Virus record (IMG/VR): IMGVR_UViG_3300029448_000123
Coordinates: 1 to 38,967 of that record
Direction: 5' to 3' (one strand)
DNA: 38,967 nt
DNA from: a virus
Part shown: positions 1 through 36,490 of the stretch, one piece after another
Layout of the letters: each line of letters opens with the position of its first letter
Numbering within the stretch: position 1 is the stretch's first letter
The notes under the pieces: model-generated
The model's database searches: none
Told to the model about the DNA's origin: nothing
What the model saw: only the letters and a program-made list of their open reading frames with translations
Position numbers and translations under genes: made by a program

Positions 1-2925
1 GGTGTTAAATCACTCCGCAAGCCTATCGACAAAGCCGCGATGGCTAGAGAAGATGATCTGATTAAGCGCGGGTACACCGACAGGGGTACAACAGTCGACC
101 GAGAGACCAGAGTCACTCCGCGCGGAGTTGCCCAAAGAGTGGAAGGCTCGATGGCGGCAGACGCTGTGATGCTTAGGGAGCAGCTAGATACAGCTCTTAC
201 CAGAAACCAACAGGTTAGGGAAGAATACCTTAAGAGGTATGATAACGGCGAGGTAACCGCTGAGGCGATTGCAAGCATCCTTCGCCAGCTAGATGCCGAA
301 GCTAAGATGCTGAAGCAGCAGAAAGGGCGCATCAAAGATCTAGATTATCGCGTTGCTCCTGTGCGTGGCGCCGACATTATCCAAGAAAAGCTGCATCAAA
401 ACAAGCGTACAGGCAAACTAAGCTCTGGGGACACGGACGTTGGTCTTGATTACGTTAGAGACAACCCTAATCTTTTTGATGGCACAGCTCTCTCCGTTAA
501 GAAGCAGCCGTCAGATATGCCCAACACAACAGGGGTTTTTTACCCTGAATCAAACGCCGTCGAGATTTATCACGATGCCTTAAGACGCGCTGATGCGACA
601 GACACGGTTCCTCACGAGCTTTTGCACGTTACAGAAAGAATGCTGCCAGGCGATGTCCGTCAGTGGATTCGAGGGACATGGGCTCAGTCAACAAAGTCGG
701 CCGCCAGGGACGTCAGTCCTGTGGACCAGCCTGAGCTGCACGGTGCTTTAATATCGGCCGCAGATGACGGCGGCGAAGCTTTAAGGTGGGTACTAAGAAA
801 CGGGCTGTACAAGCGAGGCTCTGACCCGGCAGGCCGCCATAAGTTTTTATACTCTCTTACCGACCCTAGCGAGTTCTGGGCTGTTAATGGAGAGACCCTT
901 CTCCAAAGCCGCCACGCGGCTCAGTCAGGAATAACAGCCAGGATGTCCTCCTGGATTGACGAAACGGTCTCTACTCTAAAGGGCTCACTCAATCTAGATG
1001 ACCGCGCTCCCATTATCCGAGGCCTCAACAAACTTAAGAAGTCAGACGGTACTTACCAAACGCCTTTAAGTCTTTCGCAGGGTCCTGAGGTGCTAGAAGA
1101 GGCTGTCCAAGTTGCTGACCTGGCCAACCTGCCTTCAGCGGGCCGCCTTATGGGCGAGTCCCGTAATGTGGCACCAACTCCCCCTATGAGCCTTACCGAG
1201 CGCGCGGCAGCCATTGCGACGCGCAGAGGAGGCGCGGCCGAGTTTAAAGACCGCGTCCTTGACGTACAGCCTTACGAGCAAACTTACGACGAGTACGCTC
1301 AACAGTACGCCGAACTTGCTCAGCGAGACGGCCGAATGTATACGAGCTCTCCCGACCAACACGAGAAGATGCTGCGGCAGCAACATTCAATGGCGGTAGA
1401 CAAAGCCATCGAAGAAGGCCGACCCGTACCAGAAAGAGTTCTAGCCGAATACGAAGACCTCCTTGAGCCTAGACGCCCTGTCGATGAGGCCTTTGGGACG
1501 CGGTCGCAACGAGAGCTCGTGGAGGAAGCCACCTCTCCCGCTTTGACAGCCATCCGCGATACTGAGCAGGCCGAAGCTCTTGTTCGAGGGCCGAAGAACA
1601 ACCGGGTAGTAGTTGCAAAAGACGGCTCCGTTAGAGCAATCGCCGATCATTTTGAACAAAAGCATCTTCGAGAATCGAAGCGCATGTTTAACCCCTACGA
1701 CAACCCTAAAGACTTCGACACGATCAAAGCTCGGATGATTGAAGAACTTGAGTTTCAGATGTCAGGGGCCAAGTCAGGTAAGGAGTGGTACGACGAGAGC
1801 GTGCGTCACGCCTTTGCAATGGCCGCCAAGCAGTTTGAAGAGATGGAGTACAGCGAGCCTCACCGTGTAATCTTGAGCGCCATCGCCGCCATTCAGTCCC
1901 CAGGCCAAAACGCAAAACGTAACTGGCAGATTGCTATGGAGGCCTACGAGGCCTACAAACAAACAGGCACAATCTCTGGCTTCCAGCGACTTCAGCCTCC
2001 AGTACCTGGTGGTAAACGCTACGGCCAAGGCAACCTTCGAGGCCTTCGCTGGTTAGACTACCTACTAGCTACCAAGGGTGAGAAAGAGACAGCAAAGTGG
2101 ATGCTGTCCCCTCACACCGTGCGTTCGCTCAACGGGGAAAAGCAAGCCTACGCCAAGTGGGCTCGCAAAAAGTATGGCAATCTAACTCCTGAAGAGATTC
2201 AAGACATCGCTGCCACGCATGGCTACATTCCGGCGGATGGTAAAAAGTTTAATGCCGACGAGATTAAAGCCATGATTTACGCGGACAATACCGCTGTAAA
2301 AGACGTGGGGAATCTTGACGACCTGGTATTGGGCGCGGATGCGTTTGGTCCAAAAGTTGGTCCGTTCATGAAGAACATCAACGGGCTATACGACGTTACC
2401 GGAGACATCTGGGCCATTCGAACTGTCCGTCGTCACATGGGCGACAGTATGCTTATTGATATGGAGGCCACAGCTAAAGCGCTAGGGGTTGACCCTAAAG
2501 GGTTTAGGCCAGAAGCTTACGCTAAAAACTCCCGCGCCTACAAACGCTACCTTAAAAATCGCGTTGTCAAACTGCACCCTCGTAAAAAAACAGAGATGAC
2601 CGTAGAGGCTCCGACGAGCGATCGAGAGCGTCAGATGCTCAAGCGGCTCTTTAATGAAGTCGGCGAAGCAACAGGCCTGAAGGGCTACCAAGCGCAGGCG
2701 GTTCTGTGGTATTTTGAGCAGAAGCTTTACCGGAGTGTAGGCGGCAAGCAAATCTCATACTCCTTCCCTGAAGGCGGCGCAAAGTACCTGGCCGACCGCG
2801 GCGTTGATTTCAGCGACATCCCCTACGAAGGGCTCGTTCATAATGTGGCAGACGATGTACTCACAGAGCCAAAAGCCCTGCCGGATGTTAAACAAGTTGC
2901 CCGCGATGTGTTATCGGAAGACTAG
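1..2925 (+). CDS. Large protein with HELLH zinc-protease-like motif (5' end outside window)
   Basis: The reading frame is open to base 1. The first ATG, at base 40, has no clear ribosome binding site, so the gene probably begins upstream and is partial here; 961 residues follow that ATG. An HELLH motif at bases 613-627 (residues 192-196 from the ATG) fits the HExxH zinc-binding signature of zincin metallopeptidases. It lies in a context (VPHELLHVTERML) that looks like a real helix. The last 450 residues are helix-rich and basic, with many Lys, Arg and aromatic residues; I do not recognise the family there. Very large multidomain proteins next to virion genes are often ejected with the DNA, and such a role is possible here but inferred. 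Protease activity is not shown: the third zinc ligand was not identified. Confidence 0.75.
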   Translation, partial: GVKSLRKPIDKAAMAREDDLIKRGYTDRGTTVDRETRVTPRGVAQRVEGSMAADAVMLREQLDTALTRNQQVREEYLKRYDNGEVTAEAIASILRQLDAEAKMLKQQKGRIKDLDYRVAPVRGADIIQEKLHQNKRTGKLSSGDTDVGLDYVRDNPNLFDGTALSVKKQPSDMPNTTGVFYPESNAVEIYHDALRRADATDTVPHELLHVTERMLPGDVRQWIRGTWAQSTKSAARDVSPVDQPELHGALISAADDGGEALRWVLRNGLYKRGSDPAGRHKFLYSLTDPSEFWAVNGETLLQSRHAAQSGITARMSSWIDETVSTLKGSLNLDDRAPIIRGLNKLKKSDGTYQTPLSLSQGPEVLEEAVQVADLANLPSAGRLMGESRNVAPTPPMSLTERAAAIATRRGGAAEFKDRVLDVQPYEQTYDEYAQQYAELAQRDGRMYTSSPDQHEKMLRQQHSMAVDKAIEEGRPVPERVLAEYEDLLEPRRPVDEAFGTRSQRELVEEATSPALTAIRDTEQAEALVRGPKNNRVVVAKDGSVRAIADHFEQKHLRESKRMFNPYDNPKDFDTIKARMIEELEFQMSGAKSGKEWYDESVRHAFAMAAKQFEEMEYSEPHRVILSAIAAIQSPGQNAKRNWQIAMEAYEAYKQTGTISGFQRLQPPVPGGKRYGQGNLRGLRWLDYLLATKGEKETAKWMLSPHTVRSLNGEKQAYAKWARKKYGNLTPEEIQDIAATHGYIPADGKKFNADEIKAMIYADNTAVKDVGNLDDLVLGADAFGPKVGPFMKNINGLYDVTGDIWAIRTVRRHMGDSMLIDMEATAKALGVDPKGFRPEAYAKNSRAYKRYLKNRVVKLHPRKKTEMTVEAPTSDRERQMLKRLFNEVGEATGLKGYQAQAVLWYFEQKLYRSVGGKQISYSFPEGGAKYLADRGVDFSDIPYEGLVHNVADDVLTEPKALPDVKQVARDVLSED

Positions 2926-2934
2926 GAGGGCAGA

Positions 2935-3105
2935 ATGGACCAGAACGATATGCTAATGTTTGCAGAGGCAATGAGGCTCAAGCTTGAAGCCAACGAAAAG
3001 GTCATGGAGGAAATGGCCAAGACTGACCCCAAAGTTGCGGAGACGCTCCGTCGTAGCCGCATCCCAGGGGACCAGTTGACGTATGGTGGAGAAGAGCCTG
3101 AATAA
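2935..3105 (+). CDS. Small hypothetical protein, 56 aa
   Basis: A short gene begins ten bases after the previous stop, with a GGAGGG ribosome binding site just upstream. It overlaps the next gene by one base (TAATG). The product is charged and mostly helical, starts MDQNDMLMFAEAMRLKLEAN and ends in an acidic tail. I do not recognise a family. Its place among tiny genes leading into the terminase suggests it is transcribed with the packaging genes. Confidence 0.65.
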   Translation: MDQNDMLMFAEAMRLKLEANEKVMEEMAKTDPKVAETLRRSRIPGDQLTYGGEEPE

Positions 3106-3326
3106 TGGCGAGGGACTACCGTAAAGAGTACGATGAGTACCACGGAACCCCTAAGCAGCGCGCAATGCGTGCTACACGCAACCGAGCTCGCCGCAAGGTA
3201 GGGCTGAATGTAGGTGACGCTCGTGAGGTAGACCACAAGAAGCCTTTGAGCAAGGGCGGCGGCAACGGCAAAGACAACCTGCGTACCGTCAGCCAAAAAA
3301 CCAACCGGAAGAAGTACGATGGCTGA
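3105..3326 (+). CDS. Small HNH-endonuclease-like protein, 73 aa
   Basis: The C-terminal half carries an HNH-like pattern: EVDHKKPLSKGG, then DNL and a final N in KTNRKK. This matches the DH...GG...NL...N core of small phage HNH nucleases. The zinc-binding Cys pairs found in many HNH proteins are absent and the N-terminal part is very basic. HNH proteins encoded beside the terminase assist cleavage of packaging concatemers in several phages (HK97 type). The position a few hundred bases upstream of the large terminase gene fits that role. No small terminase subunit was recognised nearby, so this or a neighbouring tiny gene could fill part of that function. The nuclease call is probable, the packaging role is inferred. 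Confidence 0.6.
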   Translation: MARDYRKEYDEYHGTPKQRAMRATRNRARRKVGLNVGDAREVDHKKPLSKGGGNGKDNLRTVSQKTNRKKYDG

Positions 3327-3498
3327 AAAGAAAAGCAAAGTTAATGAGGCCGGTAACTACACAAAACCCTTGATGCGCAAGCGCCTGTTTGCATCGATTA
3401 AAGCAGGCGGCAAAGGCGGAGCTCCCGGCCAGTGGTCTGCCCGTAAAGCCCAGATGCTTGCCAAGAGATACAAGGAGAAAGGCGGAGGGTACAAGTGA
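3319..3498 (+). CDS. Small basic protein, DUF5872-like N-terminal half, 59 aa
   Basis: The gene starts at an ATG inside the end of the HNH-like gene and ends in a GTGA overlap with the next gene. The product is Lys/Gly-rich and carries GAPGQWSARKAQMLAKRYKE followed by KGGGYK. From memory, this pattern is typical of the first half of small basic proteins grouped as DUF5872 in phages and giant viruses. Function is unknown; the high charge suggests nucleic-acid contact or packing in the virion. The family match is by eye only. Confidence 0.6.
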   Translation: MAEKKSKVNEAGNYTKPLMRKRLFASIKAGGKGGAPGQWSARKAQMLAKRYKEKGGGYK

Positions 3499-3719
3499 AA
3501 GAGACACAAAAATCCCTTAAGCGCTGGGGAGATCAAGACTGGACAACAGCCTCAGGCAAGCGGAGTAAAGACACCGGAGAGGTGTACGCGCCTAAGAAAA
3601 CTATCGACGCTCTTCGTGGCAGTGAAAAGCTTGCCAAGGCTAACGCGGTTAAGCGGCGAGCACGCAAGGCGGGTAAGCAACACGCGAAGCATGGGTTACA
3701 TAAGGGCAAGAAAAGGTAA
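3495..3719 (+). CDS. Small basic protein, DUF5872-like C-terminal half, 74 aa
   Basis: The gene uses a GTG start that overlaps the preceding stop codon (GTGA), so its translation is probably coupled to it. The protein is strongly basic and contains LKRWGDQDW, SGKRSKDTGEVYAPKKTI and a Lys/His-rich tail. These match what I recall as the second half of DUF5872-type proteins, where both halves sit in one chain. Here they are two overlapping genes. Function is unknown, with nucleic-acid binding plausible from charge. Confidence in the gene is higher than in the family. Confidence 0.6.
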   Translation: MKETQKSLKRWGDQDWTTASGKRSKDTGEVYAPKKTIDALRGSEKLAKANAVKRRARKAGKQHAKHGLHKGKKR

Positions 3720-20911: not shown

Positions 20912-23900
20912 ATGGCTGAAAAAGACGAGATGGGCCTGATCAGGGAATCCGGCACTATTGACGCCAGCCCTAAGCCGCCTGAGCCGCCACCGCTGCCCGA
21001 CTTTGTGGGGCCGAGGCAAGACCCTTACGCTGACGCCATTGAGGCTATGCACCGAGGCTTCGAAGCCTCCTACAACTTATCGGGGCGAGTCACGGAGTTT
21101 GACCAACCACTAAAAGCCGCAGCGCAGAAGAACCCCGATGCGTTACTACGCGAGCTCAACTCTGTACGGGCACAGGTACAGGCCGAAAATCCCGACATCG
21201 ACCCCGACCTTATTGAGCAGGCGTGGCACCCCGCATACGAAGGCATCGCTTCGGGCAAGTACGCGGACAGCGAGGATCTGAAGCTTAACTACCTTACAGA
21301 CGCAATCAGGTACAAAGAAAACAATGAGGACCTGCAGCGCCGTGCCGCGGAGACCCCTGCGGTAGGACTTAAGTTTGGGTACGACGTTGAAACGCGCGAA
21401 AGCGTCGCCGCGCCCTACACAAATACACAGCTAGACATCGACATGATGGCCTCGCTTCCTCAAGGAAGGGGGCGCGAGACGGCCAACGTCCAGATTGGTG
21501 ACAACCAAGACGTGTTCGAGCGCTTAAATCAGGGTCTTCGCGACGACGAGTTCAATAGGGCGTGGATTGACGAGAAGATTGGTGGACGCTTAGGCGCGGA
21601 CGAGGCCAACGCATCAAAACGGGCCTTAGTGCCCAACAACCTGTACGAGCCAGACCCCGAACAAAGCTCCAGTGTTTTCACCGCGTTCATTCCTCTGATG
21701 CAAAACCCCCTGCAACATCAGGGCTCAGGCGCCGCAAGCATCAATATGTCCGTGATTGACACCGCGCTTCTGAGCTACCACACCAGAATAACAAGAGGCG
21801 GCCGCACGTTATCCCAACTATATGCGGATGCGCAAAAAGCATACAACCTAGGGGAGCCCTTTATGGGGGTTTCTCCTGAAGGATTCACTAACTCTGAAGA
21901 CTTTAAGGTTGAGATCACTAAAAATACAGACACGGCGGCGTTCGAGGCTCTCCAGGAAGACCGCCAGCGGCTGCTGGCCTCATTCCAGGGCAACCTACTG
22001 TACAACAGAAAGTCGGGCTCTCTTGTAGACATCTTAAAAGGGAACACGTTCATGGGAATGGGGGCGCTGCCGGACCCCGACCGTTCCGACAGGATGCTGA
22101 TTGAGGACCCCAACAAGTACATCCGAGAGTTTCTAGCTCTAAGCTCGGGCGCTGCCCCAATGTCCGGGCAGATCACCGAGGCGCCGGAACTTAACCCTGT
22201 TTTTAAGCGGCGTGGCGAGGCCTTTCAGCAAGAAGTTCGAGAGCAGGGAGGCCTGGAGTGGATGCTCTCCGAAGCCGCCGGCCGAGGTGAGCTTACTGTA
22301 CCCTACTTAGAGTACAAAAAGACTCGGGCGCTGGACGACCTCATGCGTATCGCGCCCTCGACGTGGTATCACGCAGCCCAGTGGCAAGCGTACAAGGAGT
22401 TCAGGGCCAGGAACAATGGGGAAGACCCCGACAAGTACGAAGGGCTTAGCCGCGCAGACTGGGTTGAACGTGAACGTCAGGCGATTGCTAATGACCCGCG
22501 ACGTCTAGCCGCGGCATTGGCTAGCAATCAGGACCCAGCAGGCAACATGTTCCTCGTGGGGGCGAAGCTTAACCATCCGGGCAAGTACGAGAGCTCGCCT
22601 GCCATCGCCACTATGATGGACATACTGCCAAGAGCGGCTGTTATGCTTTTAGAGCCTGATGCGTTTGTTACCGGTCTCGCGGCGGCCTCAGGCGGCAGTT
22701 TGGCGCTATTTGGTTACGGCGCTACCCGCCTGTCAAAGGTGGTGTCTTTTGGATCACGAATAGCAAAGGCGTCACAAGAGCTTGCAAGGATTTCTCGGTC
22801 GGTCGAGAGCCCACTTGAAATGGCCGAGGCGCTCGACGCCGCCGTTCAGGCGGACAGGACTGGAGCGATGGGCATAGTTATGCGCTTCGCCGCGCCTGCC
22901 GCCGCCCAAAGACTCAACGGCAAAGGGGCTAAAAACGCAGTCTCCTTAATCGAGGCTGAGGCTAGCAAGCTTAAACAGGTGCAGGACAAATCAGACAAGG
23001 CCGCCGCCGCTCTTGCCGAAAACATCGTCAAGTTAGAGGGTGCTGTGGAAGAGTCTGAGCGGGCGGTTGCGGCTGTAGCCACTGTGACACACGACCTTGA
23101 GAAAAACCGGACCACAGTCGAGGGCATCACCGCGGAAGTCACGGCTCTTCAGCACGTCATAGACACGTTGACAGGAGAGCTGTCTTTGAGCATCCAAATG
23201 GAGAGGCTGGCCGAAGGGGCGCCCGAGGTGGCAAATCAGCTCAGCCTGTTCACTGACCCAAGAGACCAGCTCGCCTTCCTTAAGAAAAAAGGCGTCAACA
23301 TGCTGGTCGCGGAGGAAAAGGCAGCGGTTGCGCGAGCCGGCGGATCGCAGCGCGCTGTCAGAAAAGCCGCAAAAGAGCTCCGGACGCAACTCAACAAGCT
23401 TATCGAGCAGGCCATCAAAGAGGGTAAAGAGGCGACCCCGGGAGCAGCGGTCAGAAAGGAGCTATCGGAGGCTACAAATGCACAGCAAGCAAAGCTGGAC
23501 GAGCTACGCGATTTGCTCCGCAAGGAAAACTGGAGAATCAGCGATGAGGCTATTAGATCGCTGGAGGACATTGCGCGACAAGGCGGCGATACCGACGAAG
23601 CTTTCGAAGGCATCATGGAGGCAGCCAGGGCGCAAGTAAAAGCGGCGCAAGATGAGCATTTGGCCACGGTCGACATGCTAGAACAGCAGCAAGAGGCTTT
23701 GAACATCGCGGAGACCATACTCCAAAGAGCAGAGGAGGGTGGCGGTGGCGATCTGCCCGGGCTGTGGGACGGCCAGGTCAACTCCGCGAACGTATTGCGG
23801 GAGGTTCTTGAGGCATTTGCGGCTGGAGCTGAGGTTTTGGGGGACAAGAAGAACCGCAAGGCCCTTGACGAGCTCCTAACTAAGGGAGAGACCACCAAGG

Positions 23901-26900
23901 AGCTTCGAGACTCCGATCCTGAGGCGTTCGCGGCGGTGCTGAAGACCGCAACGAAGGACAGCGATCTGTTCTCGGAGCTTGTTGCGACGGGTGGCAAGGG
24001 CGGGGAGCTTTTGACGATGGCTTACTTGGCCCACGCGCGAGCCGGGGACCTACGAATGACGGGCATCGTAAACCGTCACCAAGCTTGGAAGAGGTTGCGA
24101 GATGAGTTTCCGCACTGGACTTGGTCAGAAACCGCAGAAAACTTGTGGGAGGATGCGGACTTTATACTCGGGATAAGCATGACCGAGATTGCGGACGCCA
24201 TCAACTTGTCGGGCATGACCACGACAAGGGTGGGAGTTTTGGGGCCTAGGTTCACCGAAATGATGCAGGAAACCGCCAATCAGGTGAGCAGGGAAGCCTC
24301 TATAAGGTTCGGGGACATCTCTGTCATCGTGACAGCCTACGGCCCTACAGCCAGAACAAGAGCAAACATCCTTCAGTACATTGGCTCACAAGAGCGCGTT
24401 GTTCTTCCTGTAGGTGAGGTAGAAGGCGCTGTGCCTAAGGCAGCTAACCTTGCTAAACGGCAACAACTTCGTCTAGAAGGCAACCAGGGCTATCTGGACC
24501 CAACAGACAGCATCCTAAACGAGGCGTTGGAGGGCTGGGAGGATGTGGGCCGCACGTTCCAAGTCAAAGGTCCCTTCCGTAAGAACAAGGGCGATGTCCT
24601 AGCCAAAGAAGACGACTACACCGCTGCGTTTATCGAGCAGTCGGACTCGTTGTATGGCTTTGTCTACTCCGTTGTTTCAGACGACATCCCTTTAGATCGT
24701 ATCCCTGACGCAAAAAAGAGTGTAGTCGACTTCGGGCTGTGGTTGGCAAAAGAAGGCGACGACGGGCTTACAAACGGTCAACGCATTCGGAACATAGAGC
24801 GCCCTGATGAGCGATTTGAAGAGCTCTACAACAACGTCGTGAGGATCGTGACCAAAAACGGCGTTGGAACAACAGGCAAACGCCTCAACAGCGCGGAAGA
24901 CCCTCTAGGTCTCTACGAGATGTCGGGCAGAACCTTCCAACTCATGCTGAAAAACATCGTAGGCGGGGCGGCTGAGGCTGATTTTGCTGTAAACATAGGT
25001 AATCTAGCCGGACCTAATGTGGGTATACGGCAGATGCGGGCCGTCGAGTCTCACATTGGCGGTGCAAGCCCTGAAGATTGGGGTAAACGCATTGTTCCGC
25101 CGCGAGAGACCATAGAGCCCGGAGACTCTGTGGCGCTTAGGGCCGAGGTAGAGCCCTTCCGTAGGGTTATCGCAAATAAAGCAGTCCCAGGCAAGGGCAA
25201 GGAGAGGCCAGTAAAAGAAGGCGGCACTCCCTTTGACGTCTCCGAGGGACGCACGCGAGGCCCGGCGTTTGCGACCGCTCAGTTAGAGCAGGATATTGTG
25301 GCCCCTAAGACGTTTGAGCTCTTGGACGTCACCGATGACAAGATAGCCATTCTTACGGATGGGACAGGCGTAAAGCTTGAGGTGCCTCTTGCGGACATCA
25401 CAAGGTTAAGTCCTGAGTTGAGCCCTTTGGACCTGGTCGACCCGTATATGCGTTACGGATTTAGTCTAATAGGTGATGTAGGCATCGACGAGGTGGCGCA
25501 GACCGGACGCTTAATAAACGCCGGGCTAGACTTGACGAGAGATCGGTTTGTCAAGTTCTCCCTCAATAGCTTTGACGAGTTGGGTAACCCTAGGATCACA
25601 CCCAAGCTTCAGCTTTCAGACTTCAGCAATAGTCTAGAAGGCAACATTAAACTTCTGACCGTCAATGTTCAAGACAAGGCTAAAAGGAACAAGTTTGCAA
25701 GCTCGGCGATGAGGGCACTTCCTAGGTTCCTGCGCTTCTGGCGGAGCCTGGTACTCTTCGGGCCAGTAGGAGACAGGGCAGGTAAGTTCTTCCTGCTGAA
25801 TGCACAAGGCGACTTTGACTCTATGACAATGCAGGTCGGTTACCGAAAGGCTTTCCAACTGTCTACCCTTGGGCTGCCCGGATGGGTGCCTGTAATAGGC
25901 GACGGGATGCAAGACGTGGCACGAAAAGCCGCGACGGCAACAGATTTTTCTGGGTACACACCGTCGAACTTGGCGCGGTTCGCTTCTGAAGAGGGGCCAA
26001 ATGCCGGACCTAGGATGGTCGAGACTCCTCCCACCAGCTTTGTCCCCGGTCCTTCTGTCTTCGGGGTCAGGTATAATCAGGTCCTAGACGACATGAAGAC
26101 GGGCGTCAATGAGACCAAGACGTACTTTAACTCCAAGGGGGTCAAGGTTGAGATGAACCCCGCGGTGGAAGCCCGTAAGGCTCGCCGAGCAGGAGCTCAT
26201 GACAACTTCATTAGCCGAGACACCACTCGCGCGCTCAATGAAGCCATTGCGCGTAACCCCGATATATTAGACGCCATGAGCTTCTCTAGCCCTGGAGCAA
26301 CGGGCAAGCAGCTCCGGGACGCATACTGGGAGATTCTACGCAACCAGATGGCCCAGGCTACTCGCAACCAAAAGGAGATGCTTTGGTTAGACCTTAGGTT
26401 CAATCAGGGCATGAGTGAGCTCGACGCCACCAAGGCTATGAACCGCACAATCTACGACTACACTTTGTCCATCAGCCCTTTTGAGGCACAGACGCTTGCA
26501 GAGTGGAGCGCGTTCTACGTCTACAAAAAGAACGCAATGCTCAACTCTGCTTACCATCTGATGAGCGTAGACAATGGTGCTGCTGCGTGGTTTGTAAACA
26601 AGATGGTGAAGGCAGATACCTACAAGCGGGCACGCGCCATGAAGCGCGGGCTGGATCAGCTTGCAAAAGACGTCTCAGATTTCGATCAAAGGGTAGAGCC
26701 GCAGATCAAGGAGTTCGAGCCCCCCATTGAGACCCGCCCGCTCATCTACCGGCCCTACGACTCAATGCTGAACAAGATCGTCAGCAACAAGGGCGCTTTG
26801 AGCTATGATATGCAGAAAGAGTTTAGGTACGAAGGGTCTAATGCAACCACATTTGCCATCTCTCATGGAAGTATACTTCCTATGCAACAAGCGATGGACA

Positions 26901-27598
26901 CCTACGCTACCCTCGGACTTCTGATTGGAGGCCAAGCCACCGCCGGGCTTTCTCCTGAGATCTCAATGAACGGGTCACAGCGAGATAAGATCTTGCTCGA
27001 CGCTGCAATCAACCAGCTTTTTCCTCTAAGGCAGTCCGTTATCGGAGACTACCTGAGAGTGCAGGCAGGGTTGCGTCCTCCGAAAGACCCCCGCTACGGG
27101 CGCAAGCTGGGTACTGCTGAGCTCGCCTTCGTCAAATCCATCCCTGGAGCCAGAGAGTTTTTAAAGGTTAAAGAAGATAAATACGGCAACTTTAGAACAT
27201 ATAGTAAGATCGGAAACAACGACATTTTTGAGCCTACTAGATATGCCGGCAACGTATGGCAAACCGCTCAGTTTCTCGGGCCTCTTTTAACGGGTGACCC
27301 CGAAGGCTTCCCTCTGGAGGGGAAAGTTTTGATGGAAGAGGGTGGTAGAGAGTTGAGCAAACTAGGCCTTACAACTAAAGATTTTAACAGATACAAAGAG
27401 CTGGGTGACATGGGCACTCGCATGGCGGCAGCGGAGTTGATACTAGGTGCTACGAACGTATCTGTATGGAACTCCACCTTGCTTGAAAGCTTTGACACCC
27501 TCAACGTGAAGCGATTGCTAGACGATCTTGAAGGCGACCGTGAAACCGATGCCGAGGGCGCCGAAAGACGCTATCTTAAAAGCAAAAAGGAAGAATGA
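20912..27598 (+). CDS. Giant internal-virion/ejection-type protein, 2228 aa
   Basis: This is the longest gene in the window and is preceded by a GGAGG site. The N-terminus is Pro-rich and probably flexible. A moderately hydrophobic Gly/Ala segment near residues 575-605 could insert into membrane. Coiled-coil sequence with heptads fills residues about 680-770, and helical sequence continues to about 960. The last 500 residues (YDYTLSISPFEAQTLAEWSA near 1847, then more helix) resemble the LPD38-like C-terminal domain found in large phage polyvalent proteins; this is a tentative match. Proteins of this size beside the tail genes of podoviruses are typically packed in the head and ejected to form a conduit or act in the cell. 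No lysozyme or transglycosylase motif was seen. Confidence 0.75.
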   Translation: MAEKDEMGLIRESGTIDASPKPPEPPPLPDFVGPRQDPYADAIEAMHRGFEASYNLSGRVTEFDQPLKAAAQKNPDALLRELNSVRAQVQAENPDIDPDLIEQAWHPAYEGIASGKYADSEDLKLNYLTDAIRYKENNEDLQRRAAETPAVGLKFGYDVETRESVAAPYTNTQLDIDMMASLPQGRGRETANVQIGDNQDVFERLNQGLRDDEFNRAWIDEKIGGRLGADEANASKRALVPNNLYEPDPEQSSSVFTAFIPLMQNPLQHQGSGAASINMSVIDTALLSYHTRITRGGRTLSQLYADAQKAYNLGEPFMGVSPEGFTNSEDFKVEITKNTDTAAFEALQEDRQRLLASFQGNLLYNRKSGSLVDILKGNTFMGMGALPDPDRSDRMLIEDPNKYIREFLALSSGAAPMSGQITEAPELNPVFKRRGEAFQQEVREQGGLEWMLSEAAGRGELTVPYLEYKKTRALDDLMRIAPSTWYHAAQWQAYKEFRARNNGEDPDKYEGLSRADWVERERQAIANDPRRLAAALASNQDPAGNMFLVGAKLNHPGKYESSPAIATMMDILPRAAVMLLEPDAFVTGLAAASGGSLALFGYGATRLSKVVSFGSRIAKASQELARISRSVESPLEMAEALDAAVQADRTGAMGIVMRFAAPAAAQRLNGKGAKNAVSLIEAEASKLKQVQDKSDKAAAALAENIVKLEGAVEESERAVAAVATVTHDLEKNRTTVEGITAEVTALQHVIDTLTGELSLSIQMERLAEGAPEVANQLSLFTDPRDQLAFLKKKGVNMLVAEEKAAVARAGGSQRAVRKAAKELRTQLNKLIEQAIKEGKEATPGAAVRKELSEATNAQQAKLDELRDLLRKENWRISDEAIRSLEDIARQGGDTDEAFEGIMEAARAQVKAAQDEHLATVDMLEQQQEALNIAETILQRAEEGGGGDLPGLWDGQVNSANVLREVLEAFAAGAEVLGDKKNRKALDELLTKGETTKELRDSDPEAFAAVLKTATKDSDLFSELVATGGKGGELLTMAYLAHARAGDLRMTGIVNRHQAWKRLRDEFPHWTWSETAENLWEDADFILGISMTEIADAINLSGMTTTRVGVLGPRFTEMMQETANQVSREASIRFGDISVIVTAYGPTARTRANILQYIGSQERVVLPVGEVEGAVPKAANLAKRQQLRLEGNQGYLDPTDSILNEALEGWEDVGRTFQVKGPFRKNKGDVLAKEDDYTAAFIEQSDSLYGFVYSVVSDDIPLDRIPDAKKSVVDFGLWLAKEGDDGLTNGQRIRNIERPDERFEELYNNVVRIVTKNGVGTTGKRLNSAEDPLGLYEMSGRTFQLMLKNIVGGAAEADFAVNIGNLAGPNVGIRQMRAVESHIGGASPEDWGKRIVPPRETIEPGDSVALRAEVEPFRRVIANKAVPGKGKERPVKEGGTPFDVSEGRTRGPAFATAQLEQDIVAPKTFELLDVTDDKIAILTDGTGVKLEVPLADITRLSPELSPLDLVDPYMRYGFSLIGDVGIDEVAQTGRLINAGLDLTRDRFVKFSLNSFDELGNPRITPKLQLSDFSNSLEGNIKLLTVNVQDKAKRNKFASSAMRALPRFLRFWRSLVLFGPVGDRAGKFFLLNAQGDFDSMTMQVGYRKAFQLSTLGLPGWVPVIGDGMQDVARKAATATDFSGYTPSNLARFASEEGPNAGPRMVETPPTSFVPGPSVFGVRYNQVLDDMKTGVNETKTYFNSKGVKVEMNPAVEARKARRAGAHDNFISRDTTRALNEAIARNPDILDAMSFSSPGATGKQLRDAYWEILRNQMAQATRNQKEMLWLDLRFNQGMSELDATKAMNRTIYDYTLSISPFEAQTLAEWSAFYVYKKNAMLNSAYHLMSVDNGAAAWFVNKMVKADTYKRARAMKRGLDQLAKDVSDFDQRVEPQIKEFEPPIETRPLIYRPYDSMLNKIVSNKGALSYDMQKEFRYEGSNATTFAISHGSILPMQQAMDTYATLGLLIGGQATAGLSPEISMNGSQRDKILLDAAINQLFPLRQSVIGDYLRVQAGLRPPKDPRYGRKLGTAELAFVKSIPGAREFLKVKEDKYGNFRTYSKIGNNDIFEPTRYAGNVWQTAQFLGPLLTGDPEGFPLEGKVLMEEGGRELSKLGLTTKDFNRYKELGDMGTRMAAAELILGATNVSVWNSTLLESFDTLNVKRLLDDLEGDRETDAEGAERRYLKSKKEE

Positions 27599-31858: not shown

Positions 31859-32424
31859 CGAAGCCTCACGGAGAAGTATTCGGAGTCCCCAAGTATGTCA
31901 GTCTCTGTGCCTGACCACTTGGAGGGCAGCGTTGACGTGGCCGGCTCAATGTTTCGCCATACTACCCCGTCTTCATTAAGGCGCAGGGTCGCCTCAAGCA
32001 CCAGAAGATTCTGCCCGCGCTTCAGGGCTAAGAACGAGTGCCCTCGCTTCCATCGCTCGTCCCACTTCTGGTAGAGATACCATCCGTTGCCGGTTCCCTT
32101 TGTGGTGAGACCCATGTCTGTCGCTGTAGTCAGTGGCCCCCAAAGGTCTTCGCGGCTCCACATCTGCCACTGCTTGTAGCGGGTGAAGCTCCAATCAGCC
32201 TTCGGATATACTTGGGCAAGCAGGCCGTAGGTGAAAGACGAGCAGTCAATCTCTCGGGTGCCAGAGCGAATGAGCGTGCTCGGCACGCCAGGGATGTCGG
32301 GCGGGTAGTCAACTTTATGTCCGTAGGTATAGCCTTCCCATACGGGGAGGCATGAAAGAATACGCTGTCGGAGGCGGGGATTGCCCACCTCAGAAGGGTA
32401 CAGTCCAACTGTGCATTCGTTCAT
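31852..32424 (-). CDS. NlpC/P60-like cysteine peptidase, probable endolysin
   Basis: The 190-residue protein shows the arrangement of NlpC/P60 enzymes, which cut peptide stems of peptidoglycan. The catalytic Cys lies in IDCSSFT (C61, like DCSGF in the family) and the catalytic His in RGHSFLAL (H129, like GHVGIYL), followed by a strand (LLVLEATL). There is no signal peptide or membrane segment, so it would need a holin to reach the wall. The ATG overlaps the end of the ATPase gene (ATGA), giving coupled translation. It is the last gene of the leftward operon. A virion-associated or toxin-like role is an alternative. Confidence 0.6.
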   Translation of the reverse strand: MNECTVGLYPSEVGNPRLRQRILSCLPVWEGYTYGHKVDYPPDIPGVPSTLIRSGTREIDCSSFTYGLLAQVYPKADWSFTRYKQWQMWSREDLWGPLTTATDMGLTTKGTGNGWYLYQKWDERWKRGHSFLALKRGQNLLVLEATLRLNEDGVVWRNIEPATSTLPSKWSGTETDILGDSEYFSVRLRG

Positions 32425-33413
32425 CGTGACGCTCCTATTAGGTCCCAGCCTAATGCTGTAAAGTCATAACCCTCAGGGAGCACGGTTGTCTGTACAAAAA
32501 CCCCAGCACAGGAGACGCTCCTCAGAGAGCGCATAAGCCACCCTAGAGTGATTGGGTCATACGCCCGGTCAGGTAGGATGAAAAGAGCTCGCGGGCCGCT
32601 GAGAAGGGCGCCTGCGAGCGCCACAGCAAGTGCGACAGTCTCGACACCAGACGGGATTACGATGCCTCCTCCGATGGACAGCCTTATCTTGCCGCCGAGC
32701 TCAACGAACTCTGCCTGCCCAATCTCCTCGGGCAGGTAACGATTGATACCCGCTTCGACCGCGTCGAACGCGCTCTTCACAAAGATCATGGCCTCGGCGT
32801 CAATCTTTGCCTTGAGCGATTTAGCCTGGGCGATCTGGTTCTGAAGGCTCTCCAGCTCAAAGGCTACCTGTCCAGCATCTAAGCCGTTGTCCTCAAGGTA
32901 CTCCAAGATGGTTGCGATCTCCCGCACTCTCTTCTGGTGGCTGCGAATAGACGCGCTAACTGACCGCATCATCTCCAGGAGGGCCTTACGGTAAGACCCG
33001 TGGTGCTTGACTCTTGCTTGCCAGCCCGGTGCGTCAATCGCAATCGGGTGGTCATCATCGTCGATGTGCGTCAACAAGAACTCGACTAGGTGTTCGTGGC
33101 TGCCCGTCAGCACGCGCATTGCCATGGCTACCACATTGTCAAAGCGCTTGCTCCGGTCTCCCCAACTCACCTCTTCACCGTCGACGGTGAGGTGGCAGAA
33201 CAGCCCGTCGCCTCTGGGGGCCAGCGCTTGGAGAGCGCCCTTGGCCTTCACGTCTTTACCTGCGGCGTCGAACGCCGTGTCGAACGCTCCGATCTCAATC
33301 GAGTTGATGATCGCGCTCTTGCCCGAGCCGTTGCGTCCCCAGATCACGTTGTACGGTGATGCGAACTGTATGTCGATAGCACCCTTTACATTTGAATAGA
33401 TTCCCTCAATCAT
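32421..33413 (-). CDS. Compact SMC/RecF-type ATPase, 330 aa
   Basis: The N-terminus contains a Walker A motif GRNGSGKS (26-33) in the context of RecF/Rad50/SMC proteins (YNVIWGRNGSGKSAIINSIE). Residues about 140-235 form a short helical, coiled-coil-like arm. Near the C-terminus a signature-like PSGVETVALAVALAGAL (from residue 254) and a Walker-B-like RALFILPDRAYDP (from 275) complete an ABC-type head. The usual DE after the hydrophobic run is replaced by PD with no following Glu, so hydrolysis may be weakened. Such ATPases act on DNA ends or structures. The gene overlaps its neighbours on both sides by four bases. Confidence 0.75.
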   Translation of the reverse strand: MIEGIYSNVKGAIDIQFASPYNVIWGRNGSGKSAIINSIEIGAFDTAFDAAGKDVKAKGALQALAPRGDGLFCHLTVDGEEVSWGDRSKRFDNVVAMAMRVLTGSHEHLVEFLLTHIDDDDHPIAIDAPGWQARVKHHGSYRKALLEMMRSVSASIRSHQKRVREIATILEYLEDNGLDAGQVAFELESLQNQIAQAKSLKAKIDAEAMIFVKSAFDAVEAGINRYLPEEIGQAEFVELGGKIRLSIGGGIVIPSGVETVALAVALAGALLSGPRALFILPDRAYDPITLGWLMRSLRSVSCAGVFVQTTVLPEGYDFTALGWDLIGASR

Positions 33414-33589
33414 GTCTTCTTCCTCATCTCATGAGGCCATATCCAGCCTCCGTGGTTATTTTTGCAGCGCCATCCACCTTGTGGGCCGGCGTCTACAATG
33501 AAATCCTTAATCCCTCCGTGCCAAGCGCGAGGCTCTTTGCACTTAGGACAAGGGCTGCCTTTCTTCTCCCAGATTAAATCCTCCGCCAC
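33410..33589 (-). CDS. Small zinc-ribbon protein, 59 aa (GTG start)
   Basis: The frame runs from a GTG at 33589, which has AGGGAG a few bases upstream, to a TGA that overlaps the ATPase start (ATGATT). The product contains CPKC near residue 14, then RCKNNHGGWIWPHEM near residue 41. The first pair plus the Cys/His group could bind one zinc. Trp- and Gly-rich spacing suggests a small nucleic-acid- or protein-binding ribbon. It overlaps the end of the upstream gene by 16 bases. No family is recognised. Confidence 0.6.
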   Translation of the reverse strand: MAEDLIWEKKGSPCPKCKEPRAWHGGIKDFIVDAGPQGGWRCKNNHGGWIWPHEMRKKT

Positions 33590-33768
33590 AGGTTCTCCCT
33601 TGTAGACCTAATCTGCCGCCGGGCGACCTTCTCAAGCCTGACTAGCTTCTTCAGCCAGTAGTCCAGTGTATGGGCTGAGTACCCGCTGAAGTTTCGTATG
33701 TCCTCTGTCGTGTACCACCCGTCCGAAGGAACGGCGGATAAAACAGCGTCACCCTTGTTAATGCTCAT
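33574..33768 (-). CDS. Small winged-helix-like protein, 64 aa
   Basis: A GGGAGG site precedes the ATG. The sequence SDGWYTTEDIRNFSGYSAHT then LDYWLKKL and a basic stretch (KVARRQIRSTREN) follow the helix-turn-helix plus wing pattern of small DNA-binding proteins. It may regulate the leftward genes or assist the polymerase encoded just upstream. The binding site is unknown and no family was recognised. Confidence 0.6.
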   Translation of the reverse strand: MSINKGDAVLSAVPSDGWYTTEDIRNFSGYSAHTLDYWLKKLVRLEKVARRQIRSTRENLWRRI

Positions 33769-33777
33769 GTGTCCTCC

Positions 33778-36240
33778 CTAGACATCTTTCCAAGTCATTC
33801 CAATCTCCGCTTCTGCACTGAAGGTAACGTCGAGACCCTCCACTCTGCGCGTCAAGGTTTCGTCAACGATCTGCTTAACTTCCTCGGCGCGCTCCTCAGG
33901 CACGGACAAAAGCACAGCGTCGTGCAGTTGGTTGACCAGCCCTATCTTGTTGTCGAAGTCGAAGGGGATGTGCTTCTCGACGAGCTCTAGCATAGACATG
34001 GCTACCACCGCAAACCCACCAGCCTGGACTCCGAAGTTGAGGATGGCGTTGTAGTCCTCCTCCGCAAAGTAGCGGCGACGCATCCAGACGACCTCTTCGA
34101 TGTACCCGTCTTGCTTGTAGGCTGACATTGTATTGCGCCACCATGCCTCAAACTCAGGAGCCCTCGACTTCCAGCGCCTGTGCAGCACTCGGATCTGACG
34201 CAGGTCGTAGTGCGCGTACAGCATGTTGCCGTCGTCATCCTCGGCCCTGCCGATTATCTCATGAACTTTAGGAGCGGACGCGCCGTATAGCGAGGCAAAG
34301 CAGATTGTCTTCGCGAGGTTGCGGAGCTGCTTGAACTGTCCCTTGCCCTTGCCCATCTTGGTATCCGGCGCACCTTCCGCATTCCAGAAGACGTCTCCGA
34401 ACATAAGGTCCGCGGTGAGATTGTGAGGGTCGATTTGCTTCTTTTCGAAGGCGTCGAGGTAGTGCTCTGCATTTGCCAGGGCGGCCGCAAAGCGCAGTTC
34501 GAGCTGGTCATAGTCCGCACCGACGAAGACGCAACCGTCTGGAGGGATGAACATATCCCGTAGGTTGAACGGGATGTTTTGGAAGTTAGGATTAGACGAA
34601 GAGAGCCGTCCGGTAACCGTTCCATGTGAGTTGTAGTCGGGGTAGACATAGCCTTCCTTTACGACACCTACGTTTGGTGCGAACTTTCTGATGTAAGTGG
34701 ACAATAGTTTCTCCGACCTGCGGTAGAAGCGTATCGCTTGAATAAAGTCCCGCTGCTCTTCGTCGACCAAGGGATTGACCGAGAGGGCTCTCAGAGATGC
34801 CACGCTTGTCGATGGTTCCCCCGAGAGCGTGTACTCCTGCGGAGGCAGCGACCACTTGTCGAAGAGCAGACTGCGTAACTGCGTAGGCGAGTTGGGGTTT
34901 ATCGTGGGGTGACTGGCGTAGATCTTGGCCCGCCACTTGTGCGCAAGCTCTGTCTGCGCTTCCTCGTGCCGCAGGCGAGTTGGCTCGTGGATGCGTATGC
35001 CCATGCGACGCATGCCGGCGCACAGGCTCTGCATGCGGAGGTCTTTTTCGATGAGGTGGGTCTGCTTGCGGGTGTACACCGTCTCTAGGAGAGGCTGCAC
35101 AATCCGGGCCGTAACCGCCACGTCAGTGGCACAGTAGACGTGGAGCTCCTCATCAGTCCGGGCCGTCACACCCGCGTGGTCAGCCTTCCACGCCGGGACG
35201 TCGGTTAGGACTGACCCTACGAAGCCGAGGCTGTGCCTGTACTCGGACGCGCCCAGCTTATGTAAAAGCAGCGTGTCTACTAGAGGGGCAGGTGTAACGC
35301 CCAGATGCTGCTCCACAACATGGCGATCAAAGTAACCTGCATTGTGACCACAAATCCGAACTTTAGATTGCTCATCAAACACCTCGCGGAGCAGGCGTTT
35401 AATCTCTTCCTCATCCTCTGGCGAGTAGAATCTTGAAACTCCGTCGATGCTAAGGAAACCCAGCATTAGAACTTCGTTCTCGGTGCCTATGCCTATACAC
35501 CTAAGACCCGCGTTGAGAGCATCGATACCGTCAGTCTCCACGTCGTAGGAGAGTAGCCAGTCATTCGCTGCGGCGTCCTCAAAAAACTCCCGCACAATAT
35601 CTGGACTAGGGTTGTACCGAACGACCGGGTCCTTCCAACGGAGACGCCCTCGGTGATGACGTATCGCCTTCTGAACGTCGCTGTGCAGTACGGGCGTCAG
35701 ATGCCTCTGGGAGGCGACCTGAGACGGGTGGTAGGTAGGAAGGACCTTGAGCTCACCAACGACCGTAGGACCACCTCTTACGGACTCCAGAGACGGATTG
35801 CCTGGCAGCACTGCCTTCGTGGCTTGCGGTCCGCAGGTGATGACGGTCTTGTACCTGGCCATCTCTTCCTCGACGTGTCCCCGGCAGGCTTCCAACGGCG
35901 ACATCTCTGGCTGCCGCCCCTTACTTATGAGTCGGCGGTTCCTTTTCTTAAGAACCTGCATGAACATCCGAGGGTCATCCTTGGGCCATCGGCACCCCAC
36001 GACATAGCCCCAGTCGACGTTGTGAGGCTTAACTCTCGCGGACTCCAAGGCGTCCTTCATCGCAACGCCGTGTTCATCCGCCCAGGCTCTACCTAAGAGC
36101 GAAGCCTGCTTCGAGGGAGCTCCGCCGAGCACCAGCACATCAGACTCGTTGTGGACAAAGTCTACCCGCTGCCACTTGCCCTCGGCTTGGTGGTATTTGC
36201 GTAGCGGGCAGCTAGCACAGTTTGCTTTGTTAAAGCTCAT
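33778..36240 (-). CDS. DNA polymerase, family A, with N-terminal UDG-like domain
   Basis: The ATG at 36240 has GAGG five bases upstream, so I prefer it to an in-frame TTG at 36258 (820 residues). Residues 1-200 resemble family 4 uracil-DNA glycosylase: iron-sulphur-type Cys at C8, C11, C83 and C119, GGAP (39-42) and HPS (171-173). The 3'-5' exonuclease follows with D233/E235, N300/D305 and Y369/D373. The polymerase domain has the TVTGRLSS motif (541-548), motif A DYDQLELR (D576), the O-helix with R640, K644, F648 and Y652, and motif C HDA (773-775). Exonuclease and polymerase catalytic acids are present, so it should replicate DNA with proofreading. A similar fusion is known in phage SPO1. 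Confidence 0.93.
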   Translation of the reverse strand: MSFNKANCASCPLRKYHQAEGKWQRVDFVHNESDVLVLGGAPSKQASLLGRAWADEHGVAMKDALESARVKPHNVDWGYVVGCRWPKDDPRMFMQVLKKRNRRLISKGRQPEMSPLEACRGHVEEEMARYKTVITCGPQATKAVLPGNPSLESVRGGPTVVGELKVLPTYHPSQVASQRHLTPVLHSDVQKAIRHHRGRLRWKDPVVRYNPSPDIVREFFEDAAANDWLLSYDVETDGIDALNAGLRCIGIGTENEVLMLGFLSIDGVSRFYSPEDEEEIKRLLREVFDEQSKVRICGHNAGYFDRHVVEQHLGVTPAPLVDTLLLHKLGASEYRHSLGFVGSVLTDVPAWKADHAGVTARTDEELHVYCATDVAVTARIVQPLLETVYTRKQTHLIEKDLRMQSLCAGMRRMGIRIHEPTRLRHEEAQTELAHKWRAKIYASHPTINPNSPTQLRSLLFDKWSLPPQEYTLSGEPSTSVASLRALSVNPLVDEEQRDFIQAIRFYRRSEKLLSTYIRKFAPNVGVVKEGYVYPDYNSHGTVTGRLSSSNPNFQNIPFNLRDMFIPPDGCVFVGADYDQLELRFAAALANAEHYLDAFEKKQIDPHNLTADLMFGDVFWNAEGAPDTKMGKGKGQFKQLRNLAKTICFASLYGASAPKVHEIIGRAEDDDGNMLYAHYDLRQIRVLHRRWKSRAPEFEAWWRNTMSAYKQDGYIEEVVWMRRRYFAEEDYNAILNFGVQAGGFAVVAMSMLELVEKHIPFDFDNKIGLVNQLHDAVLLSVPEERAEEVKQIVDETLTRRVEGLDVTFSAEAEIGMTWKDV

Positions 36241-36490
36241 CTTGACCTCTCCTCTCAATGCCTAGGGCATCCTCAAGCCAGTCGAACCAGTTGTCGAGCT
36301 CTTGCAGTGTCTCGAAGTGAGGCCGCAGGTAAGTGCCTCGTTGGTTCTGAACGAGGCCCCTTCTCTTTAAGGACGTGAAGCCAGACTTCTCTAGCGCTGT
36401 GCAATCTTTTCGCTCGACCTCCCAGAACTTCATGAGTCGCTCCAATGCGAGAAGCGCCTTTGGGCTGGGCCGGTAGGGCTTACTCTTCAT
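36230..36490 (-). CDS. Small helical hypothetical protein, 86 aa
   Basis: The ATG lies within the end of the upstream zinc-ribbon gene, and the stop lies 11 bases inside the polymerase start. Translation is therefore probably coupled in both directions, as no strong ribosome binding site precedes this gene. The product is basic at the start (MKSKPYRPSPKALLALERLM), then helical with a winged-helix-like segment (FTSLKRRGLVQNQRGTYLRP) and an acidic, Trp-containing C-terminus. It might be a small DNA-binding or polymerase-associated protein. No family is recognised. Confidence 0.65.
   Translation of the reverse strand: MKSKPYRPSPKALLALERLMKFWEVERKDCTALEKSGFTSLKRRGLVQNQRGTYLRPHFETLQELDNWFDWLEDALGIERRGQDEL

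Follow-up and report, generated by a model that had tools for sequence, protein, structure and literature searches.

An altered uracil-DNA glycosylase-like domain at the N-terminus of a phage family A DNA polymerase

The gene described here encodes the replicative family A DNA polymerase of a marine phage, and the N-terminal 200 residues of this enzyme, judged by sequence profiles and a predicted structure, descend from a [4Fe-4S] uracil-DNA glycosylase (UDG) of family 4. Alignment of this domain with a characterized family 4 enzyme suggests that it very probably performs no canonical uracil excision. Phages in which a UDG-like domain is fused to a polymerase of this type are already known, namely SPO1, PaBG and phiLo (structure 9qhs); what is new is a degenerate pocket that is under selection. 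The evidence leans, with some reserve, towards a domain that has been repurposed as a mostly non-catalytic Fe-S DNA-binding or replisome module, which by analogy would resemble the poxvirus protein D4 in its mode of action.

The window, by which is meant the whole stretch of DNA that was analysed, corresponds to an IMG/VR virus record 38,967 bases long. Its + strand carries genes for terminase, portal, head and internal virion proteins, and its - strand a replication block. The polymerase reading frame starts at an ATG at 36240, and it likely forms one operon with the 86-aa ORF upstream (Table 1). In the 820-aa protein the Pfam matches span residues 29-179 (UDG), 217-386 (DNA_pol_A_exo1) and 431-819 (DNA_pol_A), which places a UDG-like domain, a 3'-5' exonuclease domain and a PolA domain in that order on a single chain, as in phage polymerases of the SPO1/phiLo type. 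The exonuclease residues D233, E235, D305 and D373 and the polymerase residues D576, R640, K644, Y652 and H773-D774 show no variation among 21 related polymerases, and since the catalytic residues of both domains are all kept, the enzyme should be able to polymerise and to proofread. The predicted model of the full-length protein (pLDDT 87.5) matches the Bst, Klenow and Taq polymerases. Elsewhere in the window, an unusually short 330-aa ORF (32421-33413, - strand) has at its N-terminus a RecF/SMC/SbcC-type P-loop (AAA_23, E=5e-7), with no nuclease partner seen adjoining it; the roughly 360 bases (33414-33777) that separate the polymerase stop from the following - strand gene hold no - strand ORF of 80 aa or more, and the 2228-aa ORF at 20912-27598 (+ strand) has no Pfam match.

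Table 1. Coordinates in the window of the polymerase gene, its domains and the residues discussed in the text.
Feature	Position	Strand	Basis or remark
PolA gene, 820 aa, stop included	33778..36240	-	N-terminal UDG-like domain
UDG-like domain, residues 1-200	35641..36240	-	Pfam PF03167, AF2, Foldseek
3'-5' exonuclease domain, residues 217-390	35071..35592	-	Pfam PF01612; D233, E235, D305, D373 kept
Polymerase domain, residues 431-819	33784..34950	-	Pfam PF00476, E=3.3e-56; catalytic residues kept
Ribosome-binding-like sequence AGGAGAGG	36246..36253	-	5 bases 5' of the ATG; by eye
Upstream 86-aa ORF	36230..36490	-	3' end overlaps polymerase start
C8, Fe-S ligand position (Tth C13)	36217..36219	-	clade-invariant; alignment
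C11, Fe-S ligand position (Tth C16)	36208..36210	-	clade-invariant; alignment
Altered motif 1, residues 39-47, GGAPSKQAS	36100..36126	-	kin GDAPSKQ[AS]S; Tth GEGPGEEED
Y79 in place of uracil-reading N80	36004..36006	-	clade-invariant; MAFFT and HHalign
C83, Fe-S ligand position (Tth C84)	35992..35994	-	clade-invariant; alignment
D88 in place of water-positioning N89	35977..35979	-	clade-invariant; alignments
Clade-specific insert, residues 90-112, basic helix RMFMQVLKKRNRRL	35905..35973	-	alignment; model
C119, Fe-S ligand position (Tth C100)	35884..35886	-	clade-invariant; alignment
Motif 2 HPS, H171 = catalytic H155 of Tth UDGa, kept	35722..35730	-	alignments

The assignment of the N-terminal domain to the UDG fold is supported by profile and structural comparisons. 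The PF03167 profile matches residues 29-179 of the full protein with 46.5 bits (E=5e-12) and the domain alone with E=3.6e-13, and the scores obtained for the window, 46.5-50.2 bits, lie above the gathering cut-off of 24.3 bits. An AF2 model of residues 1-200, built with 22 sequences, has a pLDDT of 91.9 and a pTM of 0.88, and when it is compared with the PDB by Foldseek the family 4 UDGs (1l9g, E=1.8e-12; 1vk2, 4zbx, 1ui0/1ui1) rank first and UdgX is matched as well, all TM-scores lying at about 0.64-0.70; both the model and the Foldseek matches display the UDG alpha/beta fold. The Thermus phage phiLo family A polymerase (9qhs) is also matched (E=3.6e-5, TM 0.60), and the nearest predicted viral structure is A0A516L7M2 (domain identity 43%, TM 0.92). 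The preliminary description, made from the sequence alone, had proposed a UDG-like domain fused to a family A polymerase, to be checked by superposing a predicted structure on the Thermus enzyme, and this proposal is borne out by the Pfam match and by a model that resembles family 4 crystal structures, Thermus UDGa (1ui0) included. Since the score of the domain against the curated family 4 profile TIGR00758 (42.2 bits) is below the cut-off of 125.3 bits, a cut-off that the fused domains of L017 (185.6 bits) and L065 (143.0 bits) exceed, the domain is not itself classed as a family 4 UDG. Nor does it resemble UdgX: the GEQPG motif and the KRRIH R-loop are both absent from the domain, and it scores 24.9 bits against the UdgX profile TIGR03914, below the cut-off of 189.95 bits.

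The uracil pocket of Thermus UDGa (Tth UDGa) is formed by E41, G42, E47, F54, N80 and H155, with N80 making both hydrogen bonds to uracil N3/O4, while N89 positions the water (PMC5387724). Mutation of these residues lowers k2/Km 888-fold for E41Q, about 100-fold for E47A, about 40-fold for N80A, about 7-fold for N89A and about 2500-fold for H155S, the costliest of these losses (PMC5387724). In a residue register on which MAFFT and HHalign concur, E41 corresponds to G40 in the window (D in its kin), G42 to A41, G44 to S43, E47 to A46 (A or S in the clade) and F54 to W53. The family 4 motif 1, GE(A/G)PG with E47, is thus replaced by GGAPS..A in the window and by GDAPS..A/S in the kin, and the pair N80 and N89 by Y79 and D88; the catalytic His of the HPS/HPA motif is present as H171. 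The substitutions of N80 and N89, which the preliminary description missed, are the more telling ones, and on these alignments the stronger argument against uracil excision is the disappearance of the uracil-reading Asn rather than the state of motif 1. Because the residues that bind uracil and position the water are replaced throughout the clade, canonical excision is unlikely, and the probable loss of canonical catalysis suggested earlier is upheld, since E41, E47, N80 and N89 are all replaced and Tth mutants at these positions lose activity. A residual or altered activity is possible, given that H171, an aromatic residue at W53 and, in the kin, an acid at the E41 position are kept.

The alteration of motif 1 is real but partly private to the window contig. 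Residues 39-51 read GGAPSKQASLLGR in the window, and the motif 1 core and the HPS (residues 171-173) are found where they had been placed. Among the close relatives in which the region is covered, which are other IMG/VR contigs of marine origin with domain identities of 79-83%, some of them near-copies of one another, all 20 read GDAPSKQ, and GGAPSKQ occurs only in the window contig. The statement that the region lacks its acidic residues consequently holds for the window contig and fails for the kin, where an Asp stands at the Glu position in each case, and a general absence of the motif 1 acid from the kin is ruled out. A sequencing error was also considered as the source of GGAP, and was rejected because codon 40 is GGA in the window and GAC or GAT in the kin, at least two base changes apart, and because the contig has other private substitutions.

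The four Fe-S ligand positions, C8, C11, C83 and C119, lie where they were first reported, and their presence predicts a [4Fe-4S] cluster. Their spacing was said to be that of family 4 enzymes, which does not hold for C83-C119: it exceeds that of C84-C100 in Thermus UDGa, an insert of some 20 residues accounting for the difference. In the AF2 model residues 90-106 of this clade-specific insert form a helix, and this basic helix is, by inference from the model, a candidate DNA contact. Across 22 diverse fusion domains the Fe-S cysteines are invariant, and catalytic residues are variable.

The extent to which the active site varies among fused domains was surveyed in an alignment of the UDG-like N-terminal regions of phage-encoded family A polymerases, taken from annotated phages as well as IMG/VR. 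Dereplication at 70% yielded 38 representatives, a non-random set biased by the queries used. All four cysteines are kept in 25 of these 38, and at least one is missing in the other 13. Among the four-Cys representatives, 11 of 25 retain the full set of E41, N80 and H155; the other 14 have lost one or more of these three residues (in L018 two positions, shifted by an insert, were placed by hand). The groups that combine four cysteines with an altered active site are the window clade, Serbin/PMBT14/L056 (GD[AN]PN, and Pro for N80), L057/L058, L062, L063-L072 (GKMPN, and SPS for HPS) and LysYB1; in SPO1, EalM132 and PaBG the cysteines are lost too. On the exo-pol tree, which was built quickly, contains some long branches and does not allow every change to be polarised, the distribution of active and degenerate states needs at least eight changes, at least five of which are forced by supported (starred) branches, and loss of activity is the natural direction of change. 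No description of repeated active-site loss with retention of the Fe-S domain was found in a literature search that covered sources outside most subscription journals. A scan of genome contigs found no prophage or host relative, and plasmids gave PolA matches only, all without the UDG part.

Related arrangements were encountered during the survey. In L024 (MW202637) the UDG-like part is a separate gene (130-723), annotated as ttudgA-like; downstream of it lie an RNA ligase and a PolA (1697-3568) that begins near the exo domain, which constitutes a split fusion. In Caulobacter phage Kuura (L021:2950-6354) a UDG-like plus exo gene and a pol gene are separated by two small ORFs, with GDCPT as motif 1 and without the cysteines. 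The Pol III alpha of Pseudomonas phage nickie (MG018927; L138:4219-4959) has a C-terminal UDG-like domain (PF03167, E=2e-13) whose motifs are altered, and similar UDG-like matches come from Rhizobium phages with a Pol III alpha annotation; the occurrence of the domain on phage Pol III alpha as well fits a replisome role.

Comparison with known systems places the window domain more precisely. With the family 4 UDGs of Thermus (1ui0), Thermotoga (TM0511, 1vk2/1l9g) and Sulfolobus (4zbx) it has in common the fold (Foldseek E 1e-10 to 2e-12), the four cysteines and the HPS of motif 2, and it differs in the changes of E41 to D/G, G44 to S, E47 to A/S, N80 to Y and N89 to D and in the insert. SPO1 gp31 and its relatives SP82G, CampHawk, LysYB1 and EalM132 likewise carry a UDG-like domain ahead of exo and pol, with an altered motif 1 and a conserved His. 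The earlier comparison with SPO1-type polymerases is therefore sound as regards the UDG-like N-domain on PolA, but SPO1 and EalM132, unlike the window, are without Fe-S cysteines, so that SPO1 is a parallel and not a close relative, and LysYB1 and EalM132 lie on another branch of the polymerase tree. The phiLo PolA (PDB 9qhs) has an N-terminal UDG fold as well, but it keeps GEAPG, E47, F54, N80 and HPS and looks catalytically complete except at N89. Serratia phage Serbin and Pseudomonas phage PMBT14 share with the window the four cysteines, the His, the change of E41 to D and an altered N80, whereas they read GD[AN]PN, keep E47 and have Pro at N80; both genomes encode thymidylate synthase, that of Serbin also dUTPase, and Serbin is only about 25% identical to the window. 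The DNA polymerase I of Pseudomonas phage PaBG (L028:5605-8703) has the same three-domain order (PMC7412058), but its N-terminal domain lacks the cysteines and the HPS and scores 20.6 bits, under the Pfam cut-off of 24.3.

Several other roles for the domain must be weighed against that of a repurposed module, and selection on the gene bears on the first of them. Estimated from 13 sequences, dN/dS comes to 0.080 in residues 1-200, against 0.095 in exo and 0.089 in pol. These values are rough in absolute terms, since synonymous sites are near saturation, but they hold as a within-gene comparison, and purifying selection equal to that on exo and pol indicates that the domain is used. The eroded or missing domains of related phage polymerases (L022, L023, L028 and L082) would be consistent with a vestige on its way to being lost, but this equality, together with the 59% of positions that are invariant in the clade domain, makes such a vestige very improbable, and vestigial decay was rejected on the dN/dS. 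It is also improbable that the domain's main contribution to the polymerase is that of an Fe-S element, whether redox-sensitive or purely structural: the four cysteines do remain invariant in several lineages whose catalytic residues have changed, but the representatives that lack a cysteine, and SPO1, which lacks all four yet keeps the fold match and the fusion, indicate that the cluster is not needed by all such fusions.

The remaining alternatives give the pocket itself a function. Pocket positions vary less than the rest of the domain, although not significantly (p=0.08), and dN/dS in motif 1 (residues 36-55, 13 sequences) is 0.040, which would suit a pocket that still binds something. The residues D40 (in the kin), A46, W53, Y79, D88 and H171 are all nearly fixed in the clade, and they may, as an unlikely case that still deserves consideration, represent a pocket rebuilt for a non-uracil ligand ahead of the polymerase; if so, this would be a marine phage family with a polymerase-tethered base reader or glycosylase whose specificity is for something other than uracil. 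That the domain is specifically a glycosylase of changed specificity, in which H171 would stabilise the leaving base, D88 would position the water, and Y79 and A46 would reshape the pocket for a modified or damaged pyrimidine, is rather unlikely. The retention of H171, W53 and, in the kin, D40, the high conservation of motif 1 and the pocket, and the fused domain of L029, in which Y occupies the N80 site and the remaining key residues are conserved, argue for it, whereas the domain departs from family 4 at four of five key sites, D40 too is lost in the window, and the markers of a uracil-DNA lifestyle, thyA, thyX and dUTPase, were not found in the window or in five kin records, which are fragments. 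A second, active UDG that would free the fused domain was likewise absent from the window and these five incomplete records. It is distinctly unlikely that the domain is a read-ahead sensor, comparable to that of archaeal family B polymerases, whose pocket would capture a template uracil or lesion and stall or redirect the polymerase without excision. A conserved pocket beside the polymerase, in a fold that is kept while its catalytic residues change, is what such a sensor would require, but with an invariant Tyr at N80 uracil itself is an unlikely ligand, and the suggestion of a uracil sensor in the preliminary description is weakened to that extent.

In the preferred interpretation, that of a repurposed module, a domain derived from a family 4 UDG and fused to a replicative PolA would have stopped canonical uracil excision, and would help the polymerase to hold or read DNA instead of removing uracil from it, acting as a DNA-binding or replisome-contact module for processivity or DNA retention in the manner proposed by analogy with D4. 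Vaccinia D4 is cited as a UDG with a glycosylase-independent role in DNA synthesis (PMC1936997, citing De Silva and Moss 2003), and the proposed likeness lies in the use of a UDG fold in DNA synthesis by the D4/A20 processivity factor, although D4 is a family 1 UDG, a separate subunit, the partner of a family B polymerase, and still an active enzyme. The domain of the PaBG polymerase has been called a uracil-DNA glycosylase and taken as an active uracil repair module (PMC7412058). Key catalytic residues are replaced in the window clade and in several other lineages, and in the window clade the domain is under selection. These observations point to an additional function of the UDG fold within phage replisomes, one other than repair, which would parallel that of D4 in poxviruses.
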